Part shown: positions 7,907-32,195 of the stretch, piece by piece
How the letters are laid out: each line of letters opens with the position of its first letter
How positions within the stretch are numbered: position 1 is the first letter of the stretch
Assembly (NCBI GenBank): GCA_003155695.1
Contig: PMDZ01000011.1
Coordinates: 18,299-57,133 of the forward strand
DNA from: Candidatus Nomurabacteria bacterium
GTDB lineage: Bacteria > Patescibacteriota > Minisyncoccia > Phycocordibacterales > UBA9973
DNA: 38,835 nt
Direction: 5' to 3'
The notes under the pieces: generated by a model
Database searches by the model: none
Told to the model about the DNA's origin: nothing
The model's input: the letters and a program-made list of their open reading frames with translations, nothing else
Program-made: the position numbers and the translations under genes

Positions 7907-8818
7907 ATGGCAAACAGGCACCTTTCACGTTCAATAGTTCTTCAAACCCTCTTCGAGTGGGATTTCGCTGTCTCAAAAGACGCGGACACGGAAGAAATGC
8001 TTGAGCGCAATATTGAAGAATTTGGTCCAGGCCTTGATGATTCAAACTTTATGTCGGAGCTCTTTCAAGGTGTAATCAAGAAGAAAGCGATTATTGACGA
8101 GATTATTGAAAAAGCCGCCCCCGATTGGCCCATAGACAAAATCTCAATAGTTGACCGCAACATTCTTCGTATCGGATTATATGAATTGCTTTTCGGCGAC
8201 CGTGCCCAAGTCCCACCGAAAGTGGCGATTAACGAGGCCATTGAACTGGCAAAAAGTTTCGGCGGAGAAAATTCGAGTAAATTTATCAATGGAGTCCTTG
8301 GTGGAGTCTATAAAGAGATAGGCGAGCCCGGTAAAGACGAAGTCAGCAAGAAAAACAAACATTTTGAAACTGACCCGGCAAAATTCCCGATTGAGAAAAA
8401 AGCCGGGGCGGTTGTTTATGCAATTCACAACGATGAAATAAATTTTGCTTTCGTACATGACGTTTTTGGTTATTGGACTTTATCAAAAGGAGGTATCGAA
8501 GAGAAAGATAATGAAGAAGAAGGGGCTGTAAGGGAAATTAAAGAAGAAATGGGTCTTGATATTAAAATCAAAGAATTACTTGGACGTAACGAATATATCG
8601 CTTGCCATCCGGAAAAAGGGAAAATACGAAAACAGGTTGTATTCTTTCTGGCAAAATCAGAGTACACAGATATTGTCCTTGAAAAAGGAACCGGAGGTCT
8701 TGATGATGCCAAGTGGTTCAAACTTGAAGAAGTCCCAAATCTAAAAATGTACGACAATATGATTCCGCTTTTGACCAAAGCCATAGAAATTTTAACCAAG
8801 CCCACATCAGCCAATTAA
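7907..8818 (+). CDS. nusB: NusB antitermination factor fused to a C-terminal Nudix hydrolase domain
   Basis: N-terminus NusB (RHLSRSIVLQTLFEWDF...ISIVDRNILRIGLYELLF...VPPKVAINEAIELAKSFGGENSSKFINGVLGGVYKE); C-terminus Nudix-like box GGIEEKDNEEEGAVREIKEEMGL. Confidence 0.9.
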   Translation: MANRHLSRSIVLQTLFEWDFAVSKDADTEEMLERNIEEFGPGLDDSNFMSELFQGVIKKKAIIDEIIEKAAPDWPIDKISIVDRNILRIGLYELLFGDRAQVPPKVAINEAIELAKSFGGENSSKFINGVLGGVYKEIGEPGKDEVSKKNKHFETDPAKFPIEKKAGAVVYAIHNDEINFAFVHDVFGYWTLSKGGIEEKDNEEEGAVREIKEEMGLDIKIKELLGRNEYIACHPEKGKIRKQVVFFLAKSEYTDIVLEKGTGGLDDAKWFKLEEVPNLKMYDNMIPLLTKAIEILTKPTSAN

Positions 8819-8819
8819 C

Positions 8820-9515
8820 ATGATAGACTTTTCACAATTCGAAAAAAAGACAAATATTATATTTAATGATAAAAAGCTTCTGGAACAAGCATTTATTCAC
8901 CGTTCATATATAAATGAAAATACCGGGTCGCAATTATCGCACAATGAACGTTTGGAATTTTTGGGAGACGCTGTTCTCGAACTTATCGTCACCGATTATT
9001 TATACAACAAATATCCCGACCAAGATGAGGGGAGTTTGACTGCTTATAGGTCATCGCTCGTTAATGCGATTATTATCGGAGAAGTGGCTATGGACATCGG
9101 AATGAATGAATATTTGCTTCTTTCAAAAGGTGAGTCCAAAGATGTCGGCAAAGCTCGAGGCTATATTCTCGCCAATACTTACGAAGCCTATGTCGGAGCA
9201 GTCTATCTTGACCGCGGATACGATGTAGCCAAAGATTTCATCGCGGGGACACTTTTCGGAAAGATTGAAGCTATCGTGGCCAAGAAATTATGGCGAGACC
9301 ACAAGAGTTTAATTCAAGAAAAATCTCAAGAATATTTAAACGTCACCCCGAACTATAAAGTTTTGAGTGAAGTCGGACCAGACCACGATAAACATTTCAC
9401 TATCGGAATATTTTTCGGAGACGAACTGGTTGCCGAAGGCAAAGGTAAATCAAAACAAGAAGCCGAGCAAGAAGCCGCGCGCGGTGCATTAGAAGTTAAG
9501 GAGTGGCTTGATTAA
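8820..9515 (+). CDS. rnc: Ribonuclease III
   Basis: NERLEFLGDAVLELIVTDYLY signature; C-terminal dsRBD (GKGKSKQEAEQEAARGAL). Confidence 0.95.
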   Translation: MIDFSQFEKKTNIIFNDKKLLEQAFIHRSYINENTGSQLSHNERLEFLGDAVLELIVTDYLYNKYPDQDEGSLTAYRSSLVNAIIIGEVAMDIGMNEYLLLSKGESKDVGKARGYILANTYEAYVGAVYLDRGYDVAKDFIAGTLFGKIEAIVAKKLWRDHKSLIQEKSQEYLNVTPNYKVLSEVGPDHDKHFTIGIFFGDELVAEGKGKSKQEAEQEAARGALEVKEWLD

Positions 9516-23700: not shown

Positions 23701-24363
23701 ACAGATAAATTGATTAAAGTTCTTTCCGATCTCAAGTCCGATAATAAAGCTGGAGGAAAAAATGGAAATGAAGTTGAATATACAATTCCTGCTCGACGTC
23801 AGATTTTGGTAAAAATCGGAGCCAAGGTTAAAAAAGGCGATTTGTTAACCGATGGTTCAGCCGATATCAATGAAATTGTGAAATACGGCGGTAAAGAAAT
23901 GGCCGAGGAATATATTGTCAATGAAATAAATAAAGTTTACGATTTGCAGAGTGCTTCAATTTCCAGAAAACATATTGAAATAATTATTCGCCAGATGTTC
24001 TCGCGCAAAAGAATTAAAGATGCCGGAGATACAGCTTTTTCACCCGGAGAAATCGTTGAAAACATTGAGTTAATTGAAGAAAATGAAATTATCGAGAAAG
24101 AAGGCCATGGCAAGAAAGCTGAAGCTGGAACAATCGTACTCGGTATTACCGAAGTCTCGCTTACAACAAAGAGTTGGTTGTCTGCCGCTTCATTCCAAAA
24201 TACCAACCGAGTCTTAATCAATAATGCCATTCGTGGCGGAATCGATAATCTCCGAGGTCTGAAAGAAAATGTTATCATCGGTAATCTCATCCCAGCTGGT
24301 ACCGGTTTCGGAGTCAAACGTAAAAAAGTAGTTGAAGAAGAAAAAGACGAGTCGGGTCAATAG
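20734..24363 (+). CDS. rpoC: DNA-directed RNA polymerase subunit beta'
   Basis: CYCGKYRRIRYKDIICEKCGVEVT; NADFDGDQMAVYVPLS; CETVHGICRNCYG. Confidence 0.98.
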   Translation: MKTIDTTNFDRIALKLASPETIKEWSYGEVTKPETINYRTGRSERSGLFDERIFGPEKDYECYCGKYRRIRYKDIICEKCGVEVTRSIVRRERMGHIELSSPVAHIWFLRGVPSRMSVLLNISVSDLEKVIYFAGYIITNVYAEEKEGIIKNLESEFKAKIKSVGVEEDKEKLKELLLNTKKEINEIVPGKVLNEIAYHHFGLKYGSCFEASIGAEAIYTLFKNMDLAKLKIETENIVSKSSNIDREKLEKRLSLIRSMLHSGIRPEWMFLTIIPVIPPALRPMVALDGGRHATSDLNDLYRRVINRNNRLKKLKEIGAPDVILRNEKRILQEAVDALIDNSIAKQNDSQAVSSSQKRALKSLSDNLKSKQGLFRQNLLGKRVDYSGRSVIVVGPGLKLHQCGLPKHMVLELFKPFVISKILETELAFNIRGANRLIEEGIPEVWAILEEVIKGKYVLLNRAPTLHRLGIQAFHPILIEGNAIQVHPLVCAGFNADFDGDQMAVYVPLSDMAQMEAREYMASNKNLLKPQDGSPIVMPKMDIILGCYWMTKSVDGEKGEGMAFASPNQAITAFDLGVITFRAKIKVLGTDKIKYNTFGNKPFETTVGKLFFNSIFPDDFPYINEEINIKRMSLLVDELIVHHGIDETPKYLDKIKDFGYQYATYSGVTWGIDNVKVPEGKAEIVKKFRKEEEIVRGQFDDGLLSEEEQYQKVIEIWEHAKKEIEKLIPQSLDPRSSTYDLVFSGARGTMGSLVQMCGMKGLIVNTSGETLDFPIIPSYIEGLSPLEYFITTHGSRKGAADTALNTAKAGYLTRRLVDVAQDVVITEEDCGTKNGKKIVVVDGVFAKYIHGRVLLADIKDNEGKTMFKKGSLITKENARLLEKSGIKEAFVRTPLSCETVHGICRNCYGLDLGRNCMIELGQAVGIIAAQAIGEPGTQLTLRTFHAGGVATVDITTGLPRVEEIFERRTPKNPAIIAMTDGEVVNVVDNGTDKLIKVLSDLKSDNKAGGKNGNEVEYTIPARRQILVKIGAKVKKGDLLTDGSADINEIVKYGGKEMAEEYIVNEINKVYDLQSASISRKHIEIIIRQMFSRKRIKDAGDTAFSPGEIVENIELIEENEIIEKEGHGKKAEAGTIVLGITEVSLTTKSWLSAASFQNTNRVLINNAIRGGIDNLRGLKENVIIGNLIPAGTGFGVKRKKVVEEEKDESGQ

Positions 24364-24367
24364 AATC

Positions 24368-26107
24368 ATGCAAGCACAAAATAAAATTTGTCAAAATTGC
24401 ACAAAAGACTTCACAATAGAGCCAGATGATTTTGGATTTTATGAAAAAATAAAAGTACCACCACCGACATTTTGCCCGGAATGTAGATTACAACGGCGAA
24501 TGACTTGGAGAAATGAAAGAATTTTGTATAGAAGTAATTGTAATTTATGTGGGAAAAGTACTTTAACAACATTTAACCCAAAATACAAAATATATTGTCA
24601 TTCATGTTGGTGGTCTGACAAATGGGATCCTAAGGATTATGGCCGAGATTATGATTTTTCAAAACCATTTTTTGAACAGTATAAGAATTTTCTTTCCCAG
24701 ACCCCATTATGCGGATTATTTAATATAAATCAGATTAATAGTGAATATTGCAATTACACATATGAATCAAAAAATTGTCATTTGAATTTTGCTAGTGATA
24801 TGAATGAAGATACTGGGTATCTGTATCATTCAATAGAAAATAGAAATTCTTATGATATGCTAGGTTCCCGTAAAAATGAAAATTGTTATGAGCTAATGGA
24901 TTGCGAAGGGTGTTATGGAAGTAATAATTTAACTTTTTGTGATGGTTGTATAGATTCTAAATATTGTTACGATTGCAATAATTGTTCTAACTGCCTTGGT
25001 TGCTATGGTTTAAGGAATGCAAAATATTATATATTTAATGAAAAATTTACTCAAGAAGAATATAAAGAAAAAATCAATACATTAAATTTAAATACAAAAA
25101 GTGGTAGTAACTTATTAAAAGAAAATTTTAACCAACTGATAATTAAATATCCTCGTAAGTTTATTACTTCAAAGCATATTACGGATTGCACAGGAGATTA
25201 TTTAAAAAATGCACAAAATTGCAAAATTTGTTTTGACATTGAGGGTCCAGCTAAAGACTTAAAATATTCGACATATGGAGTTACAAAAATAGAAAATATT
25301 CAAGATGCATATGGTTTCGGAGTAAATGTAGAAGATTGTTATGACGTACTAGGAGCAGGAGACAATGTTCAAGAAATTATGTTTTCTTGTTACACATTTA
25401 GTGGTTCTTTCGACTGCAGTTATTCTTGTTTTTCCAATAGTTCGTCAAAATTATTCGGATGCATTAGCGTTAAAAATGGAAAATATATGATCCTTAACAA
25501 ACAATACACTAAAGAAGAGTATGAGAATTTAGTCCCCAAAATCATCAAACACATGTCCGATATGCCATATATAGATGAAAAGGGTAGAATATACAAATAC
25601 GGAGAGTTCTTCCCAACCGAGCTAAGTCCATTCTGCTACAATGAGACAATAGCAGAGGAGTACTTCCCATTAACCAAAGATGAAGCTATTAAGCAAGGTT
25701 ACAAATGGAAAGACAAAGAAGACAGAAATTACAATATAGATATATATAATAAAGATATTCCTGATAACATAGCTGATATAACAGACGATATCATCAATAA
25801 AGTCATAGAATGTGCCCATAAGGGTGAATGTAACCAACAATGCACCGAAGCTTTCAAAATCATTCCTGAGGAACTCCAATTCTACCGCCGGATGAATCTA
25901 CCAATCCCCAGACTCTGTCCCAATTGTCGTCATTATGAACGTCTATCCCAACGTAATCCTCTTAAACTCTGGCATAGACAGTGTATGTGCGATAAAACCA
26001 CCCATAACCACGAAGGCAAATGCCCAAATGAATTTGAAACCAGCTATGCCCCAGAGAGACCGGAAATTGTTTATTGTGAGAAATGTTATCAACAAGAAGT
26101 GTACTAA
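24368..26107 (+). CDS. Large Cys-rich multi-zinc-ribbon protein of unknown function
   Basis: CQNCTKDFTIEPDDFGFYEKIKVPPPTFCPECRLQRRMTWRNERILYRSNCNLCG...YCHSCWWSDKWDPKDYGRDYDFSKPFFEQY, many CxxC/CYxC repeats; second zinc-ribbon module near the C-terminus. Confidence 0.8.
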   Translation: MQAQNKICQNCTKDFTIEPDDFGFYEKIKVPPPTFCPECRLQRRMTWRNERILYRSNCNLCGKSTLTTFNPKYKIYCHSCWWSDKWDPKDYGRDYDFSKPFFEQYKNFLSQTPLCGLFNINQINSEYCNYTYESKNCHLNFASDMNEDTGYLYHSIENRNSYDMLGSRKNENCYELMDCEGCYGSNNLTFCDGCIDSKYCYDCNNCSNCLGCYGLRNAKYYIFNEKFTQEEYKEKINTLNLNTKSGSNLLKENFNQLIIKYPRKFITSKHITDCTGDYLKNAQNCKICFDIEGPAKDLKYSTYGVTKIENIQDAYGFGVNVEDCYDVLGAGDNVQEIMFSCYTFSGSFDCSYSCFSNSSSKLFGCISVKNGKYMILNKQYTKEEYENLVPKIIKHMSDMPYIDEKGRIYKYGEFFPTELSPFCYNETIAEEYFPLTKDEAIKQGYKWKDKEDRNYNIDIYNKDIPDNIADITDDIINKVIECAHKGECNQQCTEAFKIIPEELQFYRRMNLPIPRLCPNCRHYERLSQRNPLKLWHRQCMCDKTTHNHEGKCPNEFETSYAPERPEIVYCEKCYQQEVY

Positions 26108-29234: not shown

Positions 29235-29269
29235 CTAAAAAAGACCAGGCATTGCCTGGTCTTTTTTAG
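29235..29269. terminator. Bidirectional terminator between rpoD and the convergent DsbA-like gene
   Basis: CTAAAAAAGACCAGGCattGCCTGGTCTTTTTTAG. Confidence 0.92.
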
Positions 29270-29280
29270 TTTGTAAAATA

Positions 29281-30021
29281 TTACAAATTATCAGCGGCTG
29301 GAGCCTGTGTGGGTGCAATAAGATTAAAAAGTAAATCAGAATATTTCCAGTAGGCATCATTACCTTTTATTTTAGCAACACATTCGGCAGCAATTAACTT
29401 GGTTATTGAATTGTGTATTGGCCAGTTGCGGTATACCCAATTTACACCACCGTTTGAATCATTAACAACTTGCTCCAATATTGGTTGGAATCTTGCACAA
29501 TAAGGACACTCAAAGTCCGAATATTCTATTATTGTCACAGGAGCTGACGGATTTCCAAAAATATGATCGGTTGTCGGGTCGACTGGAGGAACATCTCCGG
29601 TATATTTTGTCGTGACTTTTCCGGCTGTTACTTCAGCGACTAACTTTTTCACATTATCAATTGTATCTGCTCCACGAATTTCTGTTTTTGCTCCATTTGT
29701 ACCGACGACCACACTATATGGTGTGCCTCTTTGATCGGCAGGAACATCTTTCATAGCAGCTTCCGCGCTTGCCTGAATTTTTGTACCTAAAGCGGATGTA
29801 TCGGTGCTGTTGACACATTCAGTAAGTTGAGCCTTTGATACTCCAACTTGCTCCGATAATGTTTTTGGTGCTGCTGGAGTCTTACTTCCATGATTAGTAA
29901 GTAATATACCTATTAACACAATGACTCCGGCAATGATGATTGCCACTGGAGTTGTAATCTTTGGTGTTGGTTGTTGCTTTACTGGATCTTGTTGCACTTC
30001 AATTGGTTTATTATTTTCCAT
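29281..30021 (-). CDS. Membrane-anchored DsbA-like thioredoxin-fold protein, apparently circularly permuted
   Basis: TM anchor; the segment resembling a DsbA C-terminal half (QVGVSKAQLTECVNS...RGTPYSVVVGTNGAKTEIRGADTIDNVKKLVAEV) precedes the N-terminal half (DHIFGNPSAPVTIIEYSDFECPYCARF...WVYRNWPIH...AAECVAKIKGNDAYWKYSDLLF). Confidence 0.85.
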   Translation of the reverse strand: MENNKPIEVQQDPVKQQPTPKITTPVAIIIAGVIVLIGILLTNHGSKTPAAPKTLSEQVGVSKAQLTECVNSTDTSALGTKIQASAEAAMKDVPADQRGTPYSVVVGTNGAKTEIRGADTIDNVKKLVAEVTAGKVTTKYTGDVPPVDPTTDHIFGNPSAPVTIIEYSDFECPYCARFQPILEQVVNDSNGGVNWVYRNWPIHNSITKLIAAECVAKIKGNDAYWKYSDLLFNLIAPTQAPAADNL

Positions 30022-31448: not shown

Positions 31449-32195
31449 ATGCATCAACACGAACCAAACGATTGGAAAAAATATGTTATTGTGCTGTTTA
31501 TAACTACTGCGATATTTGTATCCGGATTGTGGTTTTCGAGTTATTTAGGCAACAAAAAAATTGACCAACTTAAAACTGTCGAGGGTTCAATCTCGCTTGA
31601 CTTGATGTCGTCCGAAACTCAGTTCTCTTTGATGGGGGAGTTGTCTTGCAAAGACGTCTCAACTACGGTTTTGTCTTCGGAATTAAATTCATTAGCCGAC
31701 AAGATAACATATAGCGAGAATAATATCGGAAACAACAATACCGATGTCATAAGTTTGAAAAAATATTATTCACTTCTTGAAATAAAAGATTATCTGCTGA
31801 TGAAGCAAATTACTCAAAGATGCGGGCAGAAATCCGTCTTCATTCTTTATTTCTATAAAAACGATAATTGTAACGATTGTACGAAGCAAGGTTATGTTTT
31901 GACGAGTCTCAGGGAGACGTACCCGAACCTCCGTGTCTATTCTTTCGATTACAATCTTGATGTTTCGGCGATAGATGCCATGAAATCGATATATAAAGTT
32001 CCAGATAATTTGCCGGCTTTGGTTATAAACGGCAAAGTCTATTCCGGTCTTCAAAATGTGGACGAAATAGTCAAAAATTTCCCTGAACTAGAAACCATCA
32101 AAGTTGATGTTCCAACTACTCCATCAACCACGACCCCAAAATCAACAACTAAAACAACGACAAAAACGCCAGCTCCGACGGTGAAAACAAATTAA
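31449..32195 (+). CDS. Membrane-anchored thioredoxin-like protein with CxxC and Thr/Pro-rich tail
   Basis: SVFILYFYKNDNCNDCTKQGYVLTSLRETYPNLRVYSFDYN...NLPALVINGKVYSG; N-terminal TM. Confidence 0.7.
   Translation: MHQHEPNDWKKYVIVLFITTAIFVSGLWFSSYLGNKKIDQLKTVEGSISLDLMSSETQFSLMGELSCKDVSTTVLSSELNSLADKITYSENNIGNNNTDVISLKKYYSLLEIKDYLLMKQITQRCGQKSVFILYFYKNDNCNDCTKQGYVLTSLRETYPNLRVYSFDYNLDVSAIDAMKSIYKVPDNLPALVINGKVYSGLQNVDEIVKNFPELETIKVDVPTTPSTTTPKSTTKTTTKTPAPTVKTN

Follow-up and report, generated by a model that had tools for sequence, protein, structure and literature searches.

The window analyzed here (the whole stretch of 38,835 nucleotides from Candidatus Nomurabacteria) contains a gene for a membrane-anchored DsbA-like oxidoreductase whose two halves stand in exchanged order. 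The question raised by this locus is whether a complete DsbA domain has been circularly permuted in nature and, if it has, whether the event occurred once or repeatedly. The first-pass annotation, made from the sequence alone, had claimed that the half which normally ends DsbA comes first, after a transmembrane (TM) anchor, and is followed by a linker and the CPYC half, with the cis-Pro loop (GTP) thus preceding the active site; because both complementary halves were seen once each, it read the protein as a true circular permutation and not a truncation or tandem duplication. Every part of this claim held: the quoted segments and their order are found exactly in the translation of the reading frame, the loop lies ahead of the active site (Table 1), the succession of anchor, second half, linker and CPYC half is recovered by half profiles and by the AlphaFold2 (AF2) model, and half-profile mapping finds each half once only. 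Two results go beyond it, namely that permutation of this disulfide-forming enzyme appears to have recurred in Patescibacteria, a group with tiny genomes, and that the same locus holds a canonical-order DsbA in relatives.

The chain begins with a short, presumably cytoplasmic tail and a hydrophobic anchor and continues with the part that ends DsbA (...KTLSEQVGVSKAQLTEC...RGTPYSVVVG...VKKLVAEV), here called the B half, which comprises a shortened helix 5, helices 6 and 7, the cis-Pro strand, the last strand and the last helix. After the linker comes the part that starts DsbA (DHIFGNPSAPVTIIEYSDFECPYC...WVYRNWPIH...AAECVAKIKGNDAYWKYSDLLF), the A half, with the first strands, the CPYC helix, the third strand and the first helices of the helical domain, followed by a 10-residue tail. 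An extracytoplasmic location is inferred from the hydrophobic N-terminal helix alone; the same type of anchor precedes the canonical-order DsbA of related genomes (L024, L025 and L026). An inverted repeat sits between the stops of dsbA and the convergent sigma-factor gene, and since these stops are only ~47 bp apart in all, there is no room for a leftover gene copy.

Table 1. Features of the permuted dsbA gene and its product (positions in the window).
Feature	Position	Strand	Basis or remark
Circularly permuted dsbA, membrane-anchored product	29281..30021	-	246 aa, stop included in coordinates, ATG start
N-terminal transmembrane anchor, residues 25-42	29896..29949	-	AF2 helix 25-42
B half, residues 53-133, equivalent to C-terminal half of normal DsbA	29623..29865	-	half-profile match, E 3e-11
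Cys69, B-half partner of predicted second disulfide	29815..29817	-	co-occurs with Cys214
Thr100-cisPro101, catalytic cis-Pro loop (GTP)	29719..29724	-	invariant in alignments A1 and A2
Linker, residues 134-150, old C-terminus to old N-terminus	29572..29622	-	
A half, residues 151-236, equivalent to N-terminal half of normal DsbA	29314..29571	-	half-profile E 2e-33, Pfam, AF2
Active site CPYC, residues 172-175	29497..29508	-	sequence; CxxC invariant in alignment A1
Cys214, A-half partner of predicted second disulfide	29380..29382	-	co-occurs with Cys69
New C-terminus, residues 237-246	29284..29313	-	low-pLDDT tail; break site between helices 4 and 5, helical domain
Inverted repeat with flanking A/T runs, probable shared terminator	29236..29268	.	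read from sequence

The exchanged order was established with half profiles prepared from 21 canonical-order DsbAs, one for the CPxC half (A) and one for the cis-Pro half (B). In the window protein they match in reverse, B at residues 58-133 and A at residues 148-236 (E values as in Table 1, calculated for a nominal database of 100,000; these matches are numbered stop-to-stop, one residue ahead of ATG numbering). Scored with the complete canonical profile, the native protein yields two partial domains of 38.7 and 126.1 bits; rotated in silico, it yields a single domain that spans profile positions 4-180 of 183 and scores 181.5 bits, and shuffling of the B half in the rotated protein gives at most 137.8 bits (200 trials). 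Pfam covers the A half only (Thioredoxin_4, positions 4-87 of 165), and this half is over the cut-off for both PF13462 (64.9 bits) and PF01323 (30.8 bits). Each of the 69 permuted ORFs identified gains in best-domain score when rotated (by a minimum of 29 and a median of 52 bits), and their profile coverage rises from 0.51 to 0.97; the linker joining their halves has a median length of 15 aa (range 8-36). No tandem architecture (A-B-A-B, B-A-B or A-B-A) occurs among 193 two-half ORFs. Long frames in three genomes (G357, G108 and G297) were considered as tandem intermediates and rejected, since they turned out to be canonical genes extended at the N-terminus or by read-through. The window protein lacks the linear A-then-B order of the DsbA family and so counts as a permuted homologue of that family rather than one of its canonical members. 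Natural circular permutation calls for complementary halves, each present once, in exchanged order and with the full fold retained; the window protein satisfies this criterion, with the fold known from model prediction.

A structure prediction had been proposed as a check by the first-pass annotation, and its outcome is supportive. AF2, run on 14 permuted sequences, predicts a single domain of high confidence (block-mean pLDDT above 90 across approximately residues 51-230). The elements of the permuted model (H55-58, H63-72, H75-89, E102-107, E112-116 and H121-133, then E153-156, E162-168, H173-188, E193-199, H206-219 and H221-235) map one to one, rotated, onto those predicted for a canonical relative, L079 (E79-82, E88-94, H99-114, E119-125 and H135-164, then H173-182, H187-196, H200-212, E220-224, E230-234 and H239-251), with the break falling in or just before L079 helix 173-182. 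The helical domain inserted in the thioredoxin fold has the same set of elements in both models, and CPYC is placed at the start of helix 173-188, as the DsbA family requires. Foldseek, which respects chain order, finds only partial DsbA-type matches to the permuted model in the PDB (~100 columns, about half of the model; best E 1.5e-3), whereas the canonical control matches over its full length (~200 columns; best E 4.7e-11; 203 matches at E <= 0.001), as would be expected if the protein is a circular permutant. The permuted protein is thus predicted to form a single complete DsbA fold with rotated connectivity, a prediction that rests on the order of elements, without three-dimensional superposition.

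The catalytic features are retained in the permuted order. CxxC is kept in 68 of the 69 permuted ORFs and the TP of the cis-Pro loop in every one (69/69), the latter judged by sequence without inspection of the cis geometry itself. Equivalents of Cys69 and Cys214 are both present in 189 of 193 sequences and both absent in 4, and no sequence has one only (p = 2e-8 for co-occurrence, a value that is not strict because the sequences are related). In Wolbachia alpha-DsbA1 a second disulfide in the helical domain slows the reaction with its DsbB (PMC3839904), and by analogy a disulfide of the Cys69-Cys214 type is inferred to staple the two halves together in either topology. As for a partner, the genome of the window protein encodes a DsbB (45.4 bits against a cut-off of 22.1), as do 122 of 147 family genomes, whichever DsbA topology they carry; a search of the window protein's genome for VKOR as the oxidant partner found none. 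The permuted protein is the only classical CPxC DsbA in its genome by PF13462. Thiol oxidase activity is accordingly not shown but inferred, from the intact CPxC and cis-Pro motifs and the genomic DsbB, without biochemical data. Two further features of the same genome were noted. A small anchored thioredoxin-like gene carrying an FWCPHC motif stands ahead of its DsbB gene, L188 (G000:C6), the two probably forming one operon, and L002 (G000:C8:86284-86703) codes for another DsbA-like protein, divergent and of canonical order, that has a CYAC motif and several hydrophobic helices.

Homologues sharing this order, another check that had been suggested, were found: a full-length permuted-order match is present in 21 of the 24 genomes of the window's genus, and half-profile order picks out the 69 distinct permuted ORFs, which are spread over at least 16 families of the phylum. 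Beyond the genus, permuted genes are also present at the level of family, order, class and phylum (named examples being Candidatus Nomurabacteria, Colwellbacteria and Uhrbacteria), as well as in a single-contig genome (G001) and on a 704-kb contig (L037). The permuted order and its conservation are therefore shown. Several members of this collection, or of its surroundings, depart from the usual form. L027 (G016) and L028 (G022) are second permuted paralogues in which the usual anchor gives way to a start resembling a signal peptide and a spacer resembling a coiled coil; L063, L152 and L155 form a divergent permuted group with a long linker between the halves (~35 aa); and L010 (G011:C24, near 8178-8891) has an in-frame TGA in place of a Gly codon (QV*VNK versus QVGVNK) in an otherwise intact permuted gene, which is likely a point change or a sequencing error. 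In Peribacteraceae, L103:2055-4907 encodes a 951-aa protein in which a canonical DsbA domain is combined with repeated beta domains and, at the C-terminus, surface-layer-like repeats.

The genomic setting offers a direct comparison of the two orders. Genes in the window run rpoB, rpoC, dnaG, a sigma-70 gene, dsbA (on the opposite strand), a gene for a family 2 glycosyltransferase (GT2), a Cys-containing thioredoxin-like gene, EF-Ts and S2; the first two are genes which we take to be rpoB and rpoC from their size and position. The block from rpoB to S2 is conserved through the genus. Within genus g24 the same slot holds a canonical gene in one genome (L184, G072) and a permuted gene in another (L086, G099), the adjoining sigma-factor genes being 94% identical; likewise canonical L175 (G137) and permuted L174, L173 and L176 share the slot, with sigma-factor identity of 90-98%. 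In three genomes that branch inside the window's genus (G007, G015 and G023) the slot is occupied by a DsbA of canonical order that carries this type of anchor too; it is not sister to the permuted one, and the slot has therefore probably been swapped there. Permutation in place within the window's own genus was considered and is unsupported, as the permuted genes do not have the slot's canonical genes as their closest kin. A window-type permuted DsbA (L132/L204) is found at the same slot in G094, of another genus, and falls within the clade of the window's genus on the gene tree, which probably reflects gene transfer or a slot swap. The rpoD-dsbA-GT2 slot thus likely displays both permutation and replacement. 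No link of the dsbA locus to defence systems was found. Two neighbors were also noted: a 248-aa anchored protein (31449-32195, +) with a CNDC motif in a thioredoxin-like setting, which has no Pfam match and retains synteny with dsbA and GT2 throughout the genus, and a 591-aa frame between rpoC and dnaG (24332-26107, +), likewise without a Pfam match and absent or moved in several relatives.

For phylogenetic analysis, trees were built after rotating all sequences to one common order. The permuted/canonical label requires 23 changes on a tree of 139 rows. A careful tree of 68 rows brings this down to 13 (bootstrap 12-15), and branches with good support force no fewer than 7 of those. A single permuted clade is rejected (AU test, p = 5.9e-5), as is a single clade of the main, early-cut break-site type alone (AU, p = 6e-6). 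The one-clade constraint is rejected for each half separately too; single-half phylogenies are short in columns, so that only this test was taken from them. Two well-supported groups mix the orders, L049, L086 and relatives with canonical L184 and L185 (100/98) and permuted L173, L174 and L176 with canonical L175 (100/99), and one and the same canonical sequence is closest to both the A and the B halves (L184 for the L086 group, L175 for the L173 group), with the exception of L172, whose A half is about equally near L185 and L184. The two orders are related by descent, being same-slot orthologues that interleave in the tree. The main break lies between helices 4 and 5, at nearly the same position in most permuted ORFs; in L173, L174, L176 and L149 it lies one helix later, leaving helix 5 on the A side, and there are therefore at least two break sites. 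The tree is unrooted, and topology changes do not by themselves tell gain from loss; the permuted order is taken as derived because the canonical order is common to all the matched solved DsbA-type structures and the Pseudomonadota rows. Support is weak for many deep branches of the DsbA tree, which leaves the count of events uncertain, and recombination between copies could mimic some of them. Repeated topology changes on the gene tree are shown; that they represent several apparently independent permutations in Patescibacteria, mostly at the helix 4/5 loop, is very likely as part of the explanation that follows.

The explanation that best accommodates these results, and that is very probable as a whole, is that the window protein is an anchored extracytoplasmic thiol oxidase of DsbA type and a natural circular permutant (anchor, B half, linker, A half) of ordinary fold and recurrent origin. 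Its chain would end in the old middle of the helical domain, and with an ordinary DsbA shape CPYC and the cis-Pro loop would meet as usual. It would most likely oxidize cysteines of exported proteins and be re-oxidized by the DsbB encoded elsewhere in the genome, a partnership that is inferred. The route from a canonical-order dsbA was probably a tandem duplication within the gene, after which the outer halves were lost; this too is inferred, no intermediate having been found, an absence that does not exclude the route. Patescibacteria would have undergone this on more than one occasion, for the most part at a single tolerant loop that separates helices 4 and 5, and in the family studied the permuted gene would have been carried in one conserved slot. 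A bolder reading, toward which the evidence tips only slightly, is that at least 7 independent topology changes used a preferred loop and a second site, often in the same slot, with anchoring through the helical domain maybe selected; if true, one enzyme in one lineage would furnish a natural replicate series of protein topology change.

Of the alternatives, the one that survives best holds that permutation is adaptive: anchoring through the helical domain would turn the active site relative to the membrane and favor DsbB or particular substrates. This is possible, in that the anchor stays N-terminal while its attachment point on the domain moves, and in that fixation has been repeated at one loop; however, DsbB is present with either topology, and permuted and canonical genes replace each other in the same slot, which fits a near-neutral exchange (near-neutrality being itself inferred, not shown). 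That permutation took place just once, in an early ancestor of the Patescibacteria, with later vertical loss and horizontal transfer explaining all permuted copies, is unlikely. The near-identical break site of most copies, the weak support of deep branches and the clear occurrence of slot swapping by transfer (the window-type gene of G094) speak for it; against it stand the AU rejections of one clade, for all permuted genes, for the early-cut type and for each half, the different break site of L173, L174, L176 and L149, and the two supported groups in which permuted and canonical genes are nearest relatives. Moreover, horizontal transfer moves genes across genomes but does not interleave topologies within a gene tree. 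It is very unlikely that the halves do not fold together in one chain and instead form a domain-swapped dimer, or that the product is a degenerate, non-catalytic anchor protein. Circular permutants can domain-swap, and the new linker is short in some copies (minimum 8 aa), but the single-chain AF2 model is of high confidence, CPxC, cis-Pro and the paired Cys residues are conserved, and no other classical CPxC DsbA is found in the genome by PF13462. An assembly or binning artefact or a chimeric gene (misassembly was the concern raised by the first-pass annotation, and independent assemblies rule it out) is all but excluded: most relatives are metagenome-assembled genomes, but the 69 distinct ORFs come from many independent assemblies, including single-contig G001 and the 704-kb contig, with active-site and Cys positions conserved in both halves.

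Recurrent permutation, the preferred reading, gives these genes a wider use. Natural circular permutations are usually viewed as single old events, and their origin and neutrality are therefore hard to test. Here close relatives carry both topologies in the same slot (beside sigma-factor genes of 90-98% identity), with several apparent events and two break sites, and this contrast makes mechanism, tolerated break sites and functional cost directly testable; patescibacterial DsbA is thus a natural test case of protein rewiring, the swap often taking place in the same gene slot. Because half of each permuted DsbA escapes linear profiles and sequential structure search, these proteins are likely annotated as truncated.

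The closest known system is the DsbA family (PF13462/PF01323; Wolbachia alpha-DsbA1, 3f4r/3f4t; B. subtilis BdbD, 3eu3), with which the permuted protein shares CPxC, cis-Pro, the thioredoxin fold with helical insertion and a membrane-side oxidant, DsbB, in the genome, and, with alpha-DsbA1, the extra Cys pair in the helical domain (PMC3839904). Unlike that family it has its halves swapped in linear order and new termini in the helical domain; linear profiles and sequential structure searches extend over no more than half of its length. Random permutants of E. coli DsbA have been engineered (Hennecke, Sebbel and Glockshuber 1999, J Mol Biol 286:1197; cited in PMC3281007 and PMC12667903); they likewise have relocated termini in the DsbA domain, and functional variants exist among them, so the fold tolerates permutation (Hennecke 1999, cited in PMC3281007). 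In contrast to these laboratory-made proteins, the patescibacterial ones are natural, conserved and recurrent. In the open-access literature searched (subscription papers being outside its scope) no natural permutant of DsbA or of the thioredoxin fold was found, only engineered DsbA. Within that literature the kind of event is known, while the enzyme, the recurrence and the same-slot contrast appear to be new. Recurrent natural circular permutation is known from DNA methyltransferases (Jeltsch 1999 and Bujnicki 2002, cited in PMC3320104), where permutation through internal duplication and loss of the outer halves has been described (PMC3320104); as with patescibacterial DsbA, rearrangement has been repeated within one enzyme family. 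Duplicated or partial intermediates are documented for the methyltransferases (PMC3320104) and none was seen for patescibacterial DsbA, but DsbA, unlike the methyltransferase case, presents permuted and canonical orthologues in one genomic slot among close relatives.
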